Shown here: positions 38,194 through 43,069 of the stretch, one piece after another | Position numbering within the stretch: position 1 is the stretch's first letter | How the letters are laid out: each line of letters starts with the position of its first letter | NCBI GenBank assembly: GCA_021739635.1 | Contig: JAIPBH010000012.1 | Location: forward strand, 1 to 64,000 | Source of the DNA: Flavobacteriaceae bacterium | Lineage (GTDB): Bacteria; Bacteroidota; Bacteroidia; Flavobacteriales; Flavobacteriaceae | Length of the DNA: 64,000 bases | Direction: 5' to 3' | Program-made: the position numbers and the translations under genes | The notes under the pieces: model-generated | Told to the model about the DNA's origin: nothing | What the model saw: only the letters and a program-made list of their open reading frames with translations | Databases searched by the model: none

Positions 38194-39624
38194 CTAAAAT
38201 TTAAATCCAATTCCTGTATAAACACCTATAAAATAGGGTTTAAAATTGCCAGAAGTATTATTAAAAGTGTTGATTTGATATTTAAATAAAGGCTCTAAAT
38301 TCAAATCTAATTTTTTAGTTATTTTGTAATTTAATCCTAAACCTAAATTAGCGCTATAGCTTACTTTGTTTAAGTTTGTAGCTTCTCCAATTTTAGTTCG
38401 TTGTCCTTCAAATTCAGAAAATAATTCATTGCTGCTTAATATGAATGAACTAAAACCACCGATAACATTAAAACCAAATTTTTTATTGATGATAGCATAT
38501 TCAATTTCTAATGGAATTTCAATATATCCTAAAGATTGATTAATGGATGTATTAGACGTTTTTATGAAGGTTTCATTAGTTTCAACGCTTAAACTTTCAC
38601 CACTGATAAGAGAGATGTCTGTATCAATATTTCTTAAAGCACTAGCGTTTGATTGAATTCCAACGGACTCAAAAACAACTACATTATTGGTATTGTATCC
38701 TAAATTAACCTTGTTAATTCCAGAACGAATACTAAGTTTATTGTTGATAGCATAACTTGCGCTAACACCATAACTCATTGTAACTTCACCGTTTTTTGTA
38801 TTATCATTAAATTGAGCATCTAAAGAAGAACCCTTACCAAGACTATTAAAATACACAGGAGCAGCATTGGTAGCTAAACGCCATTTGTTTAAGTTCTTAT
38901 CTTCATCCTCTTTTTTTGTTTCAGCAATAGCATCTTCAATAGATATTTTATTGTTTTCTGTGGTTTTGTTTATCAAAGGGTTTTCTTCTTGTTTGCTGTT
39001 TTCTGCAATAACAGAGGTATTATTTTTTATTGCATTTTGGGTCTCATTTGTTTTATAGGTTTCTAAAAGGACTTCTGTGTTTTTTATGGAGCTTTTTTCG
39101 TTTGTTTTATTTGATGCAACATTGCCTTCATTAGTTATTGATTGCATTTCTGAAACCTGATTTTTAGTTGTAAAATTGTTCGTTTTGTTTTTTAAATTTG
39201 ATTTTTGAGATGAGTTATTTGAAATTATAGTAGTTTGATGACTTTTTGCTGGTTGACTGGTTATGCTGTTTTTAAGGTCTTCGGATTCATTACTTGAAAC
39301 TTTGTTAGTACCGCTATTTTCATTAAAATCATTAGCATTGTTGGGTTTCTCAGATTTTGTTGAAGATTCTTCTTTAGTGTTTGTAATTTGATTTGTAGGA
39401 ATTACTAAGTCTTCGTTGTTAAAATACAGTATTCCTATAGTTAAGAATGCTAATAGTAAAGCTGCTACGCCAGCATAACGCCACCAAATAGGAATGATTC
39501 GTCGTTTCTTTTTATTTTGATTGAGTTTAGTTTCAATGTTTTGCCAAACAGCATCACTTGGTGTGGCTTCAAAATCTTTAAAGCTTTCTTGAAACAACCT
39601 GTCAATATGTTTTTTTTCTTTCAT
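38194..39624 (-). CDS. Dual-membrane-spanning anti-sigma factor-like protein (Dma type)
   Basis: A 476-residue protein that seems to cross the whole envelope. Residues 1-45 form a small cytoplasmic helical region (HIDRLFQESFKDFEATPSDA). A membrane helix follows at about 49-67 (YAGVAALLLAFLTIGILYF), then about 175 residues of low-complexity Asn/Ser/Thr/Lys/Glu linker. Residues 246-476 resemble an outer membrane beta barrel, ending in GIGFKF with a terminal Phe as in BAM signals. It overlaps the ECF sigma gene by one base (TAATG). This architecture matches the dual-membrane-spanning anti-sigma factors described in Bacteroides thetaiotaomicron. The alternative is an unrelated barrel with an uncleaved anchor. 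Confidence 0.75.
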   Translation of the reverse strand: MKEKKHIDRLFQESFKDFEATPSDAVWQNIETKLNQNKKKRRIIPIWWRYAGVAALLLAFLTIGILYFNNEDLVIPTNQITNTKEESSTKSEKPNNANDFNENSGTNKVSSNESEDLKNSITSQPAKSHQTTIISNNSSQKSNLKNKTNNFTTKNQVSEMQSITNEGNVASNKTNEKSSIKNTEVLLETYKTNETQNAIKNNTSVIAENSKQEENPLINKTTENNKISIEDAIAETKKEDEDKNLNKWRLATNAAPVYFNSLGKGSSLDAQFNDNTKNGEVTMSYGVSASYAINNKLSIRSGINKVNLGYNTNNVVVFESVGIQSNASALRNIDTDISLISGESLSVETNETFIKTSNTSINQSLGYIEIPLEIEYAIINKKFGFNVIGGFSSFILSSNELFSEFEGQRTKIGEATNLNKVSYSANLGLGLNYKITKKLDLNLEPLFKYQINTFNNTSGNFKPYFIGVYTGIGFKF

Positions 39625-40175
39625 TATAACGATTGTAAACTTTTTGTTGTTTTATAGTTTTCAATGGTTTTCATCAATATCTGTCTAGCACGTGCTAGAT
39701 TAGATTTTGAAGTACCTATATTTATATCTAGCATGTTAGCTATGTCATTATGAGAATAACCATCAAGAACGTATAAGTTAAAAACAAGCCTATATCTGTC
39801 TGGCAACTCTTGTATTATTTGTAAAAGATAGTCTAAAGAAATAGACTCATCATCTATTTCTATTTCAACATCTTCTACAACATCTTCGCTAATAATTTCA
39901 AAAACTTTTTCTTGCCGGTAGCGTTGTAAAACGGTATTAACAGTAACTCGTTTTAGCCAACCTTCAAAAGAGCCTTTGTGTTTGTATTGTTCAATTTTTT
40001 TATAAATGGTCAAAAAAGCATCTTGCAAATTATCTTCTGCTTCTGTATAGTTTCTTGAATACTTTAAGCATATTGAAAATAGTTTACTCGAAAAGAGTTT
40101 ATACAATTCACTTTGCGCTTGAGTATCATTAATTTTACAATTTTCTATGAGTTGCTCCAAACTCAAATTAATCAC
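39624..40175 (-). CDS. ECF-type sigma-70 factor
   Basis: A 183-residue extracytoplasmic function sigma factor with region 2 (KYSRNYTEAEDNLQDAFLTI, core-binding and -10 recognition) and region 4 (LPDRYRLVFNLYVLDGYSHN plus DIANMLDINIGTSKSNLARA, a helix-turn-helix for the -35/-33 element). An acidic linker, EDVVEDVEIEIDDE, joins them. The stop overlaps the start of the next gene by one base, so the sigma factor and its predicted anti-sigma factor are made together. Its regulon is unknown. The gene lies 19 bp after a small lipoprotein gene on the same strand. Confidence 0.92.
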   Translation of the reverse strand: MINLSLEQLIENCKINDTQAQSELYKLFSSKLFSICLKYSRNYTEAEDNLQDAFLTIYKKIEQYKHKGSFEGWLKRVTVNTVLQRYRQEKVFEIISEDVVEDVEIEIDDESISLDYLLQIIQELPDRYRLVFNLYVLDGYSHNDIANMLDINIGTSKSNLARARQILMKTIENYKTTKSLQSL

Positions 40176-40194
40176 GTTTTAATTAAAAATTTAT

Positions 40195-40602
40195 TTAATC
40201 TATAACCGGTACTTCAATGGTTAAATATTGGTCAACATCATTATCATCAACACCTTGCCAGAATTTAAAAATGTAACTACCATTGCTTGTTACTATAAAA
40301 TTAAATGTTGCTTCTACTAATTCATCTGTAAGGTCTGTACAATTATTGTCAATATAATCATAATTTATAACTGCTACGGTACGCTCATTGTTGTTTTTTA
40401 AATAGTAAAATTCCCTAAAAGTGTGACAAGCAGAAGGTTTAAAATAGCTAACGGTAATAGGATATGTTTCTCCTAAAGTAAACGAATCCGGAATATCAAC
40501 ACTTTCTATTGGTAAAATTTCTAAATTATAATTAACAGAATTGTCATCCAGACTACATGCAAATAAAATTAGAAATAAACTTGATAAGAATAACTTTTTC
40601 AT
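40195..40602 (-). CDS. Small lipoprotein upstream of the sigma factor gene
   Basis: A 135-residue predicted lipoprotein with lipobox LFAC (Cys16). The mature part is beta-rich with two further cysteines in FKPSACHTFREF and DNNCTDLTD that could form a disulfide. No family is recognised. Only 19 bp separate it from the ECF sigma gene, so the three genes 40602-38194 are probably one operon. It might be a ligand or partner of the sensing barrel, which is speculation. Confidence 0.7.
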   Translation of the reverse strand: MKKLFLSSLFLILFACSLDDNSVNYNLEILPIESVDIPDSFTLGETYPITVSYFKPSACHTFREFYYLKNNNERTVAVINYDYIDNNCTDLTDELVEATFNFIVTSNGSYIFKFWQGVDDNDVDQYLTIEVPVID

Positions 40603-40671
40603 TGCAATATTGTTTAATTTGATTTTTTATACAATAGATGCTAAGAAGGTGAAAAGGTTGCGTATTTAAAT

Positions 40672-40697
40672 AAAAAAGCCCCAGTGATTTGGGACTT
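40672..40697 (-). terminator. Terminator after recA
   Basis: Read on the minus strand, AGTCCCA pairs with TGGGGCT (one G-T wobble) around a loop AATCAC and is followed by TTTTTTA. It ends 7 bases after the recA stop codon. Confidence 0.75.
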
Positions 40698-40703
40698 ATT
40701 TAA

Positions 40704-41708
40704 CTATTTTAAAGCTTTTAAAAGGGCTTTAATTTTATTTTCCAGTTCGTCTTGAAGTTCTGGATTATCTTGAATGAGCGCTTTAACAGCATCTCTACCT
40801 TGACCTAGTTTTGTCTCATCATAACTAAACCAAGACCCACTTTTTTTAATGATTTCATGTTCAACAGCAATATCTAAAATCTCTCCTACTTTTGAGATGC
40901 CTTCGCCATACATAATATCAAACTCTGCTGTTTTAAATGGTGGAGCTACTTTGTTTTTTACAACTTTAACTTTTGTTTTATTACCAGTTACATTCCCGTC
41001 AGTTTCTTTAATTTGTGTAGAACGTCTTATATCTAAACGAACGGACGCATAAAATTTTAAAGCATTCCCACCAGTAGTTGTTTCTGGGTTTCCAAACATG
41101 ACTCCAATTTTTTCACGCAATTGGTTAATAAAAATAACGGTACAATTTGTTTTGCTAATAGAAGCAGTTAATTTTCTTAAAGCCTGAGACATTAATCTAG
41201 CATGTAAACCCATTTTAGAGTCGCCCATTTCACCTTCAATTTCACTTTTTGGTGTTAAAGCAGCTACTGAGTCAATCACTACAATTTCTATGGCGCCAGA
41301 GCGTATTAAGTTATCTGTAATTTCAAGAGCTTGCTCGCCATTATCAGGTTGAGACATAATTAAATTATCAATATCAACGCCTAATTTTGCAGCATAAAAT
41401 CTATCAAAAGCATGTTCAGCATCAATAAAAGCAGCAATACCACCAGCTTTTTGAACTTCAGCAATAGCATGCAAAGTTAAGGTTGTTTTTCCTGATGATT
41501 CTGGTCCATAAATTTCAATAACTCTCCCACGTGGATAACCGCCAACACCTAATGCAATGTCTAAACCAAGAGAACCAGAAGGAATGGCTTCAACATCAAC
41601 AACTGCTTGATCGCTCATTTTCATTACGGTTCCTTTTCCGTAAGCTTTATCTAATTTATCTAATGTAAGTTTAAGTGCTTTTAATTTTGCTTCTTTTTCG
41701 CTGCTCAT
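40704..41708 (-). CDS. recA: Recombinase RecA
   Basis: DNA strand exchange and SOS co-protease. The 334-residue protein has Walker A in GPESSGKTT (near residue 72), the [12 protein letters not shown] Walker B region, and loop L2 with [22 protein letters not shown]-type sequence (core [16 protein letters not shown]). The start [26 protein letters not shown] is usual for Flavobacteriia. It is a single-gene unit ended by its own terminator. No LexA box can be judged here. Confidence 0.98.
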
Positions 41709-41880
41709 TTCTAATTTTATTTTCTAAGTAATTGATGCTAAAATAATACATCTTTTGTCACAATACAATTTTATCACGCAACCTTTTTATACATTATGCA
41801 TCTTAATTAAAAAATGGGAAATTTTTTGCTGTGAAAAAGAACCAATTTCTATTTAAAAATTAGTACTAACTCAAACAACG

Positions 41881-41916
41881 AAAAAGCACTTTATGTAATG
41901 TAAAGTGCTTTTTTTA
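41881..41916 (+). terminator. Orphan terminator hairpin between recA and trhO
   Basis: AAAAAGCACTTTA (41881-41893) pairs perfectly with TAAAGTGCTTTTT (41901-41913) around the loop TGTAATG, with a run of T after it and A before it, so it could act on both strands. It lies between two divergently read genes, where no annotated transcript ends. Confidence 0.7.
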
Positions 41917-41923
41917 TGAGATA

Positions 41924-41955
41924 TTGCTAAAGGTTTTTAAAAAAATGTACCTTTG
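41924..41955 (+). promoter_or_regulatory. Promoter of the trhO-trhP-ferredoxin operon
   Basis: TTG (41924-41926), a 21-bp spacer and the perfect -7 TACCTTTG (41948-41955) match the Bacteroidota promoter. Transcription should begin near 41960, giving a leader of about 35 bases to the ATG at 41996. Confidence 0.7.
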
Positions 41956-41995
41956 CACCTTTAAATATTCTTTAACCTTAAAACATTCGTATAGC

Positions 41996-43069
41996 ATGCA
42001 ACTGTACAATAAATTAAGCGCAAAAGAAAGAGCAGAATTAATCGATCAGGCAGGAAAAAATCGATTAACACTTTCTTTTTATCAATATGCCAAAATTGGC
42101 AATCCTCAAGTTTTTAGAGATCACTTGTTTATTACTTGGAACGCCTTAGATGTTCTTGGTAGAATTTATGTAGCTCATGAAGGTATTAATGGCCAGTTAT
42201 CACTTCCAGCAGACAGATTTAATGAATTTAAAGAACACCTTGATAGTATTTCTTTTTTGCAAGGTATTCGGTTAAATATAGCTATTGAACAAGACAACAA
42301 ATCATTTTTAAAACTAAAAGTAAAAGTACGTGACAAAATTGTTGCTGATGGGTTAAATGATGATACGTTTGATGTAACCAATAAAGGGATTCATTTAGCT
42401 GCTGAACAATTCAATCAAATTATTGAAGATGAAAACACGATTTTGGTTGACATGCGAAATCATTACGAAAGCGAGATAGGCCATTTTAAAAATGCTGTTA
42501 CGCCAGATGTAGATACGTTTAGAGACTCATTAGATATTATTGAAGAAGACTTAAAAGACCATAAAGAAGATAAAAACTTGGTGATGTATTGTACTGGAGG
42601 TATTCGTTGTGAAAAAGCCAGCGCCTATTTTAAACATAAAGGGTTTAAAAACGTCTTTCAATTAGAAGGTGGCATTATTGAATACACTAGACAAGTAAAA
42701 GAGAAAAATTTAGAAAACAAATTTATAGGGCAAAATTTTGTTTTTGATGATAGAAGAGCAGAACGTATAAGTGATGATATTATAGCTAACTGCCATCAAT
42801 GTGGAGAACCTTTTGATGTGCATACCAATTGCGCTAATGACGCCTGCCATTTATTATTTATTCAGTGTGATGCTTGTAAAATAGAAATGAATAATTGCTG
42901 CTCAACAACTTGCAAAGACATTCATGCCTTGCCTTATGAAGAACAAAAAGCCTTAAGAAAAGGGCAAGGTAACAGCAATGATATTTTCAAAAAAGGACGC
43001 GCTGAGCATTTGTCCTATAAAAAGGATTTGAGAAATATTTTTGAGATTTTAAAGAAAAAGGAAGCTTAA
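41996..43069 (+). CDS. trhO: tRNA uridine-34 hydroxylase (rhodanese-like TrhO)
   Basis: Uses oxygen to make 5-hydroxyuridine at wobble position 34 of tRNA. The 357-residue protein has an N-terminal ferredoxin-like domain with HEGINGQLSLP, then a rhodanese domain with the catalytic cysteine in VMYCTGGIRCEKASAYF, then a cysteine-rich C-terminal part (NCHQCGEPF, CHLLFIQCDACK, NNCCSTTC). Upstream in-frame starts (TTG at 41924 and ATG at 41945) lie in the promoter, so ATG 41996 is chosen (MQLYNKLSAKERAEL). The next gene, 10 bp on, is the oxygen-independent counterpart trhP. Confidence 0.92.
   Translation: MQLYNKLSAKERAELIDQAGKNRLTLSFYQYAKIGNPQVFRDHLFITWNALDVLGRIYVAHEGINGQLSLPADRFNEFKEHLDSISFLQGIRLNIAIEQDNKSFLKLKVKVRDKIVADGLNDDTFDVTNKGIHLAAEQFNQIIEDENTILVDMRNHYESEIGHFKNAVTPDVDTFRDSLDIIEEDLKDHKEDKNLVMYCTGGIRCEKASAYFKHKGFKNVFQLEGGIIEYTRQVKEKNLENKFIGQNFVFDDRRAERISDDIIANCHQCGEPFDVHTNCANDACHLLFIQCDACKIEMNNCCSTTCKDIHALPYEEQKALRKGQGNSNDIFKKGRAEHLSYKKDLRNIFEILKKKEA

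Follow-up and report, generated by a model that had tools for sequence, protein, structure and literature searches.

The locus described here raises the question of what a sigma factor that appears to be tethered to the outer membrane would control, and what the small lipoprotein encoded beside it is for. The locus lies in a 64,000-nucleotide stretch from a Flavobacteriaceae bacterium (assembly GCA_021739635.1, contig JAIPBH010000012.1, positions 1 to 64,000; the window hereafter), where a lipoprotein gene, a gene for an extracytoplasmic function (ECF) sigma factor and an anti-sigma gene form an operon at 38194-40602 on the minus strand, the one copy of the system in the source genome. The original prediction, whose open reading frames (ORFs) and coordinates for these genes agreed with our recheck, suggested that the anti-sigma seems to span the envelope and that the lipoprotein may be a ligand or sensor part, in an extension of the Dma/Das arrangement. 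Our reading, to which we give a probability of about 0.75, is that the operon belongs to a Flavobacteriaceae branch of the Dma/Reo systems that controls a regulon marked by a promoter motif, and that the lipoprotein is chiefly an auto-induced surface output.

The evidence that carries this reading is the motif, which came to light when we read the DNA before lipoprotein genes: an ECF-type promoter, ACGCAACC-N15-YATCT, precedes the operon. Among the closest loci (the best 80 of 243 relatives, partly from the same genomes as the set described below), the form NCGCAACC-N15-YATCT stands before the operon in all 80, with a spacer of 15 and a first base that is A in 75 and G in 5. Counted by lipoprotein gene, the motif is present before 46 of the 62 examined (window included); the 16 without it are standalone or other-family genes (L091-L096, L098, L101-L106) and those at L107, L074 and L079. 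Counted by sigma gene, 48 of 60 loci (L031-L090) have the motif, 47 with spacer 15 and one with 14. The sigma loci that lack it are L061, L074 and the ten most distant (L081-L090), so we take the motif to go with this branch.

In a set of 60 genomes (37 of the same family and 23 others), the exact pattern occurs at 123 sites, compared with 7 for the reversed pattern. Allowing spacers of 13-17 yields 142 sites versus 30 reversed, the four other spacings contributing 19 together, which is chance level. The site also keeps company with the anti-sigma: it is found in 32 of the 33 same-family genomes that have an anti-sigma and in none of the four that have not, the sole exception (G036) carrying a one-base variant. 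Among the other 23 genomes, G061 alone has a site. The motif displays the traits of an ECF-type promoter, namely a conserved -35 with AAC, a fixed spacer, a distinct -10 and a position upstream of the sigma's own operon. Since it stands before that operon and co-occurs with the system, we infer that this sigma reads it.

The sigma factor itself matches Pfam Sigma70_r2 and r4_2 (E 1.2e-14 each), that is, ECF regions 2 and 4, and among the best 25 of its 101 NCBIfam matches the general sigma70-ECF superfamily is alone above cut-off. For the anti-sigma C-terminus the best Pfam match is OMP_b-brl, at 22.5 bits and thus under the cut-off of 28.7. An AlphaFold model of the anti-sigma, built with 59 homologues, has short N-terminal helices at residues 7-16 and 24-34, a helix of transmembrane (TM) length at 46-69, low confidence over most of residues 75-222 and, from residue 248, a barrel with eight long strands by our own count. 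The blocks of the barrel mostly have a predicted local distance difference test (pLDDT) score of 94-98, with a weaker loop at 321-360. The 177-residue linker is rich in N, S, E, T and K. Foldseek places the eight-strand proteins OmpA, NspA and OmpW, along with larger barrels, among the best matches of the barrel. Invariant positions comprise Trp27 in the N-terminal domain, where Phe11, Pro22, Ile30 and Leu34 are nearly invariant, and five glycines and one proline in the barrel. Finally, aligning the anti-sigma profile by hhalign with four anti-sigmas that neighbour NigD genes (presumably Bacteroidales proteins, and not Dma1, Dma2 or Reo themselves) gives a probability of 98.5 and E 1.8e-15, over the barrel columns alone.

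Model, Foldseek and hhalign together bear out the trans-envelope order of short N-terminal domain, TM helix, disordered linker and barrel that had been proposed for this protein; the barrel, for which a structure prediction had been called for, is confidently predicted, and its homology to the barrels of the NigD-neighbouring anti-sigmas supports, with the model and Foldseek, the suggested kinship with Dma/Das. As modelled, the protein is a dual-membrane anti-sigma of the Dma/Reo type, a kind already known. By analogy with published Bacteroidales homologues, it is plausible that the barrel senses the state of the outer membrane.

Anti-sigma matches at E<=1e-3 occur in 61 of 99 genomes (own included, part of the matches being weak) and the three-gene order is retained in 79 of the 80 closest loci, so the arrangement is not due to chance. 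The sigma and anti-sigma genes overlap or abut in 65 of these 80 loci and are separated by at most 3 bp in all of them. The wider order recA - lipoprotein - sigma - anti-sigma - plsC - trpS is conserved across most loci of the family. Yeosuana aromativorans and Y. marina are among the relatives that share 56-61% identity. The trio is still linked in stretches without recA (L064, L078), and at L079 the lipoprotein gene is placed after the anti-sigma. Several variants of the locus were also seen: a tandem pair of ECF/anti-sigma pairs of this type in one same-family genome (L343), distant versions in which the putative anti-sigma beside an ECF gene is far longer, at 748 and 771 residues (L089, L090), and clusters of several small, mostly lipoprotein-like genes adjoining a sigma/anti-sigma pair (L107, L074), with lipoprotein homologues on both sides at L107.

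To see what the motif would switch on, we examined 64 of the 123 sites, all fetched away from recA; the remainder lie at recA or at the sigma locus or, for at least 8, were not fetched. An ORF of at least 60 codons starts within 300 bp behind the motif at 51 of the 64 sites, and within 70 bp at 49 of those 51. A fixed script classes 29 of these 51 first ORFs as lipoproteins, versus 17 of 224 other ORFs on the same stretches (Fisher p 4e-14). Single-linkage BLAST clustering finds families that recur behind the motif, one in 8 genomes, one in 5 and one in 4. In the source genome the sites lie at the operon, between recA and trhO, and before a 143-residue lipoprotein, a 131-residue Cys-rich lipoprotein and a microprotein; two matches have spacer 14, one before the microprotein (L116) and one before nothing (L111). 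Ten of 15 homologues of the 131-residue lipoprotein have a relaxed motif upstream, of which seven had already been found by motif and three are independent. As a side observation, two genomes have a SusC-like gene whose start lies 142-153 bp downstream of the motif (L182, L189), and in another genome the distance from motif to a SusD-like gene is 25 bp (L177); the names SusC, SusD, RmlD-like and TrhO are readings of sequence by eye and not search results.

Where no such ORF follows, the motif precedes a microprotein of 28-36 residues, for example MNILIIIAVLIAVNILLLTFSVNKKTEP, at 12 of 13 sites, the thirteenth (L163 (591)) having neither a whole gene nor a microprotein. Together with the spacer-14 site at L116 (source genome C10:208766, minus strand), the microprotein stands behind 13 sites in all. 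It has a single TM segment; nine of the 13 versions are closely alike (28-29 residues) and four looser, and several of the genes are directly followed by a terminator-like stretch. In eight 28-residue versions, variation affects the first position of 15 of the 27 codons, the second position of 6 and the third position of 20, so the frame looks coding.

The operon lipoprotein is modelled as all-beta (pLDDT 91). Across 42 homologues Cys16 of the lipobox and Cys59 do not vary, and at least 90% have Cys88, so the possible disulfide noticed originally does correspond to a conserved cysteine pair. Pfam finds, in the 42 members, no family of known function beyond the lipoprotein attachment site and weak, chance-level matches, and a PDB sequence search with the profile returns a single match, E 0.98, to a signal peptide. 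Sigma and anti-sigma are both present at 44 recA-linked loci, and 37 of these also carry the lipoprotein. Six lack it (L037, L053, L057, L059, L061, L072) and L076 retains a remnant; in six of these seven the promoter still stands before sigma. Paralogues occur elsewhere (L091-L096, L098, L101); we considered these standalone genes as regulon members and rejected them, the motif being absent upstream. Homologues from another family (L102-L106) precede an ORF of about 900 residues, with a 178-residue ORF between in four of the five.

A membership of the lipoprotein in NigD was likewise considered and rejected: the genomic place is the same, but the sequences are not homologous and the fold match is weak. 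Among the best 25 of 27 Pfam families (E<=1) matched by the 42 members, there are no NigD models. NigD occurs in none of 148 genomes of the phylum and in 8 of 295 of the class. We fetched nine NigD loci from class-level relatives, and in five of them NigD adjoins an ECF gene: NigD, ECF and anti-sigma lie in that order on one strand in L325 and L328, NigD and ECF in L332, and NigD is divergent from the pair in L327 and L329. Four of these five have a barrel anti-sigma, and all four barrels are homologous to that of the window. By eye, no copy of the window promoter was seen before the NigD or ECF genes of the NigD loci, and one class-level relative, G257, has a spacer-16 variant in front of its ECF gene (L340, L235). 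In our reading the lipoprotein would work like NigD without being a member, and a surface lipoprotein beside a dual-membrane sigma switch is an arrangement that recurs with unrelated lipoproteins. Mainly because of this recurrence, we think it likelier that the lipoprotein is an auto-induced output than that it acts as ligand or sensor; it also lies under one promoter with the sigma, is absent or defective in 7 of the 44 loci and occupies the place that NigD has in Bacteroidales.

A second copy of the promoter lies on the other side of recA. Behind it come a conserved block, GGGAAA..TTTTGCTATGAAA, followed mostly by a GACTAACTC, and then a terminator. In 23 short versions 98.4% of the terminator pairs are kept, and 21 cells have changed on both sides, where shuffles give 5.9; the pairs that show such a double change number 5 versus 3.5, a value reached by 52 of 500 shuffles, and the other measures lie above nearly all shuffles. 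Besides the terminator, no structure is predicted within these 23 versions; longer versions contain, by eye, a CTAACTCG..CGAGTTAG inverted repeat, and Rfam returns three matches on 40500-42100, all under the gathering score. A peptide frame of 28-30 residues follows the motif in 34 of 160 loci scanned, a number that includes some places counted twice (the frames were sought with DGG as their ending, which is hence not a result). At other loci, the window among them, the frame is gone and promoter, block and terminator remain, and for this reason we favour a function as RNA. The predicted transcript between the divergent recA and trhO genes is a candidate small RNA (sRNA) or peptide gene.

Table 1. 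Features of the operon and its surroundings (positions in the window).
Feature	Position	Strand	Remarks
Anti-sigma, 476 residues	38194..39624	-	
Anti-sigma residues 247-476, predicted outer-membrane beta-barrel, eight strands (own count)	38197..38886	-	Model, Foldseek, hhalign
Anti-sigma residues 70-246, predicted disordered periplasmic linker	38887..39417	-	Model and composition
Anti-sigma residues 46-69, predicted inner-membrane helix	39418..39489	-	Model
Anti-sigma residues 1-45, two short helices, presumably the cytoplasmic domain that binds sigma	39490..39624	-	Model; Trp27 invariant
ECF sigma factor, 183 residues, GTG start	39624..40175	-	1-bp overlap with anti-sigma start
Lipoprotein, small, signal peptidase II type, 135 residues, all-beta fold	40195..40602	-	Cys59/Cys88 conserved; no Pfam family found
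Promoter of operon, ACGCAACC-N15-CATCT	40636..40663	-	33 bp before lipoprotein ATG, directly after recA terminator-like hairpin
Second promoter copy, other side of recA, facing trhO	41776..41803	+	Copy on that strand in 72 of 80 closest loci
Predicted short sigma-dependent transcript, candidate sRNA	41804..41915	+	28-30-residue peptide frame in many relatives
Intrinsic terminator of short transcript, before trhO	41882..41915	+	Compensatory changes across 23 sequences

These elements suggest the following mechanism. At rest, the N-terminal domain of the anti-sigma would hold the ECF sigma at the inner membrane, as published homologues lead us to expect, while the same chain would end, by way of its disordered tether, in a predicted barrel presumably located in the outer membrane as in those homologues. 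If the barrel were disturbed or failed to assemble, the sigma would be released and would read ACGCAACC-N15-YATCT, given the place of the motif before the sigma's own operon and its co-occurrence with the system. Judging by where the motif stands, the freed sigma would transcribe that operon with the lipoprotein first, lineage-variable small lipoproteins and other envelope proteins, the membrane microprotein of about 28 residues and the short terminated transcript beside recA. The lipoprotein would then chiefly be an auto-induced surface output in the place that NigD has in Bacteroidales, possibly with feedback on the barrel.

Other explanations bear on the lipoprotein first of all. The original prediction raised a sensor or ligand role, and in such a role the lipoprotein would sit at the outer membrane, bind barrel or tether and trigger or restrain sigma release through its folding, disulfide state or cargo. 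This draws on tight linkage: the gene immediately precedes sigma in 79 of the 80 closest loci, is still linked where recA is not and follows the anti-sigma at L079, and the cysteine pair is conserved. We nevertheless consider it unlikely, and the analysis does not support it as the first choice, given that the lipoprotein is absent or broken in 7 of the 44 recA-linked loci with sigma and anti-sigma, is the first gene behind the apparent sigma promoter, shares that promoter with other, unrelated lipoproteins, has paralogues with no sigma of this type found nearby, and has as its Bacteroidales counterpart beside sigma NigD, a regulon output. An induced feedback regulator, in the manner of CpxP or RseB, would be made on activation and re-bind the barrel to end the response; such a role partly coincides with the output reading and would suit both the well conserved positions of the lipoprotein and the one operon and one promoter it has with sigma and anti-sigma, but the same 7 of 44 loci do without it, and we regard such a role as rather unlikely.

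Two further alternatives concern the other ends of the system. The second promoter copy may just drive trhO, the short RNA being a leader or attenuator, which we think possible but doubtful. The motif does face trhO, 120 bp before its first listed TTG start. We take YceA to be the same protein as TrhO. In the accessible text on Flavobacterium psychrophilum, an SM6 promoter is listed for YceA (PMC9723704). Against this, a terminator with compensatory changes lies between the motif and trhO, and a housekeeping-like TANNTTTG occurs within 110 nt after the terminator in 49 of the 65 sequences for which a terminator was called (a raw count with no chance control). As for the anti-sigma, it is highly improbable that we are dealing with an ordinary cytoplasm/inner-membrane protein whose barrel-like C-terminus is periplasmic or a fusion relic, since conserved positions fall mostly in the barrel, which is also the part predicted with the greatest confidence, and homologous proteins are described as spanning both membranes.

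Several observations weigh against our own reading. On the side of the promoter, G062 has an anti-sigma match of 1.5e-29 and no spacer-15 site, having two with spacer 16; G063, G069 and G072, whose anti-sigma matches are weak, have no site. The spacer is not universal, being 14 in L078, in same-family L215 and L217 and at the outputs L116 and L354, and no convincing site is found near the more distant homologues L220-L234. On the side of the outputs, 22 of the 51 first ORFs are not lipoproteins by the script (many of these have a lipobox or signal peptide by eye, in a reading that was not blind), two (L147, L152) resemble cytoplasmic dTDP-sugar reductases by eye, and outputs vary greatly from genome to genome. 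Neither the lipoprotein paralogues nor the other-family homologues have the motif, so the lipoprotein family is not tied to this sigma. As to the parallel with NigD, hhalign of the lipoprotein profile with 8 NigD sequences aligns 28 signal-peptide columns and nothing beyond; as to a C-terminal beta-sandwich fold in common, a fold search (VIA) puts 3k0y, which matches the NigD of L325 at E 2.4e-30, at the top with Z 6.3 and another Bacteroides lipoprotein, 3nqi, second with Z 5.9, a weak match given unrelated rows up to 5.7. Lastly, we infer which ECF sigma reads the motif, and equally binding, location, signal and transcription.

A wider reading, for which we see even odds, is that this is a whole flavobacterial outer-membrane stress response, in which one chain from cytoplasm to outer membrane and one near-invariant promoter would govern interchangeable surface lipoproteins, a conserved inner-membrane microprotein of about 28 residues and a small RNA back to back with recA, which may descend from or double as a 30-residue peptide gene. 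Dual-membrane anti-sigmas are recent and, in the published text accessible here, described from gut Bacteroidales. With a promoter that hardly varies, the regulon can be read across dozens of flavobacterial genomes, and the responding genes are directly testable by reporter. It also suggests that mutually unrelated surface lipoproteins are a shared output of such systems in two orders. For feedback, there are two small candidates open to testing, the microprotein and the transcript linked to recA. The core is of a known kind; what is new is the promoter with its regulon of lipoproteins, together with the microprotein and the transcript beside recA.

How does this compare with the systems already described? 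Going by the accessible text of PMC13088901, Dma1/Das1 and Dma2/Das2 of Bacteroides thetaiotaomicron have, like the system here, a sigma-binding end, a TM helix, a disordered tether, a C-terminal barrel and a paired ECF gene; Dma1/Das1 act through nigD1, and the Dma2 operon also has a third gene, but this is BT_1557 (DUF4943), unlike the window lipoprotein. That text contains no promoter motif or flavobacterial regulon for Dma/Das. The idea that our locus extends the Dma/Das arrangement holds by way of a new lipoprotein family and a readable regulon, and less by way of a new sensor part. EcfO/Reo of Bacteroides fragilis and Phocaeicola vulgatus, in the accessible parts of PMC9308784 and PMC13114119, is likewise an ECF sigma with an anti-sigma across all envelope compartments; it is induced by envelope-damaging toxins, its outputs include surface lipoproteins and nigD genes, and in P. 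vulgatus nigD (M0N98_03762), ecfO (03761) and reo (03760) have consecutive tags. The NigD proteins we compared are unrelated in sequence to the window lipoprotein, and those same parts do not describe the window motif, the microprotein or the recA-linked transcript for EcfO/Reo.

Among flavobacterial promoters, SM6 of F. psychrophilum is likewise a class of ECF type in the Flavobacteriaceae, and its genes include an ECF/anti-sigma pair as well as a regulatory RNA and YceA; it differs, as far as the accessible description goes, in a -10 of CGT and in genes that include parts of the type IX secretion system, where the window has YATCT and mostly lipoprotein genes (PMC9723704). The ECF motif of a B. 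thetaiotaomicron regulon, in the accessible part of PMC12596196, is unlike the window motif. SM6, the nearest flavobacterial ECF promoter we found, looks different. Our literature search found no described regulon for an outer-membrane stress response of Flavobacteriaceae, and no paper joining ECF21 with flavobacteria; the promoter motif or a flavobacterial member may be in print.

In E. coli, sigma-E and RseA, with the small RNAs MicA and RybB, form an outer-membrane stress system that has both protein outputs and small RNAs. The likeness lies in outer-membrane stress, in the protein outputs and, if confirmed here, in the small-RNA arm; the difference is that RseA lacks a domain in the outer membrane and is regulated through proteolysis and RseB. 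If the wider reading is true, the flavobacterial system would correspond to the sigma-E system of proteobacteria, sRNA arm included.

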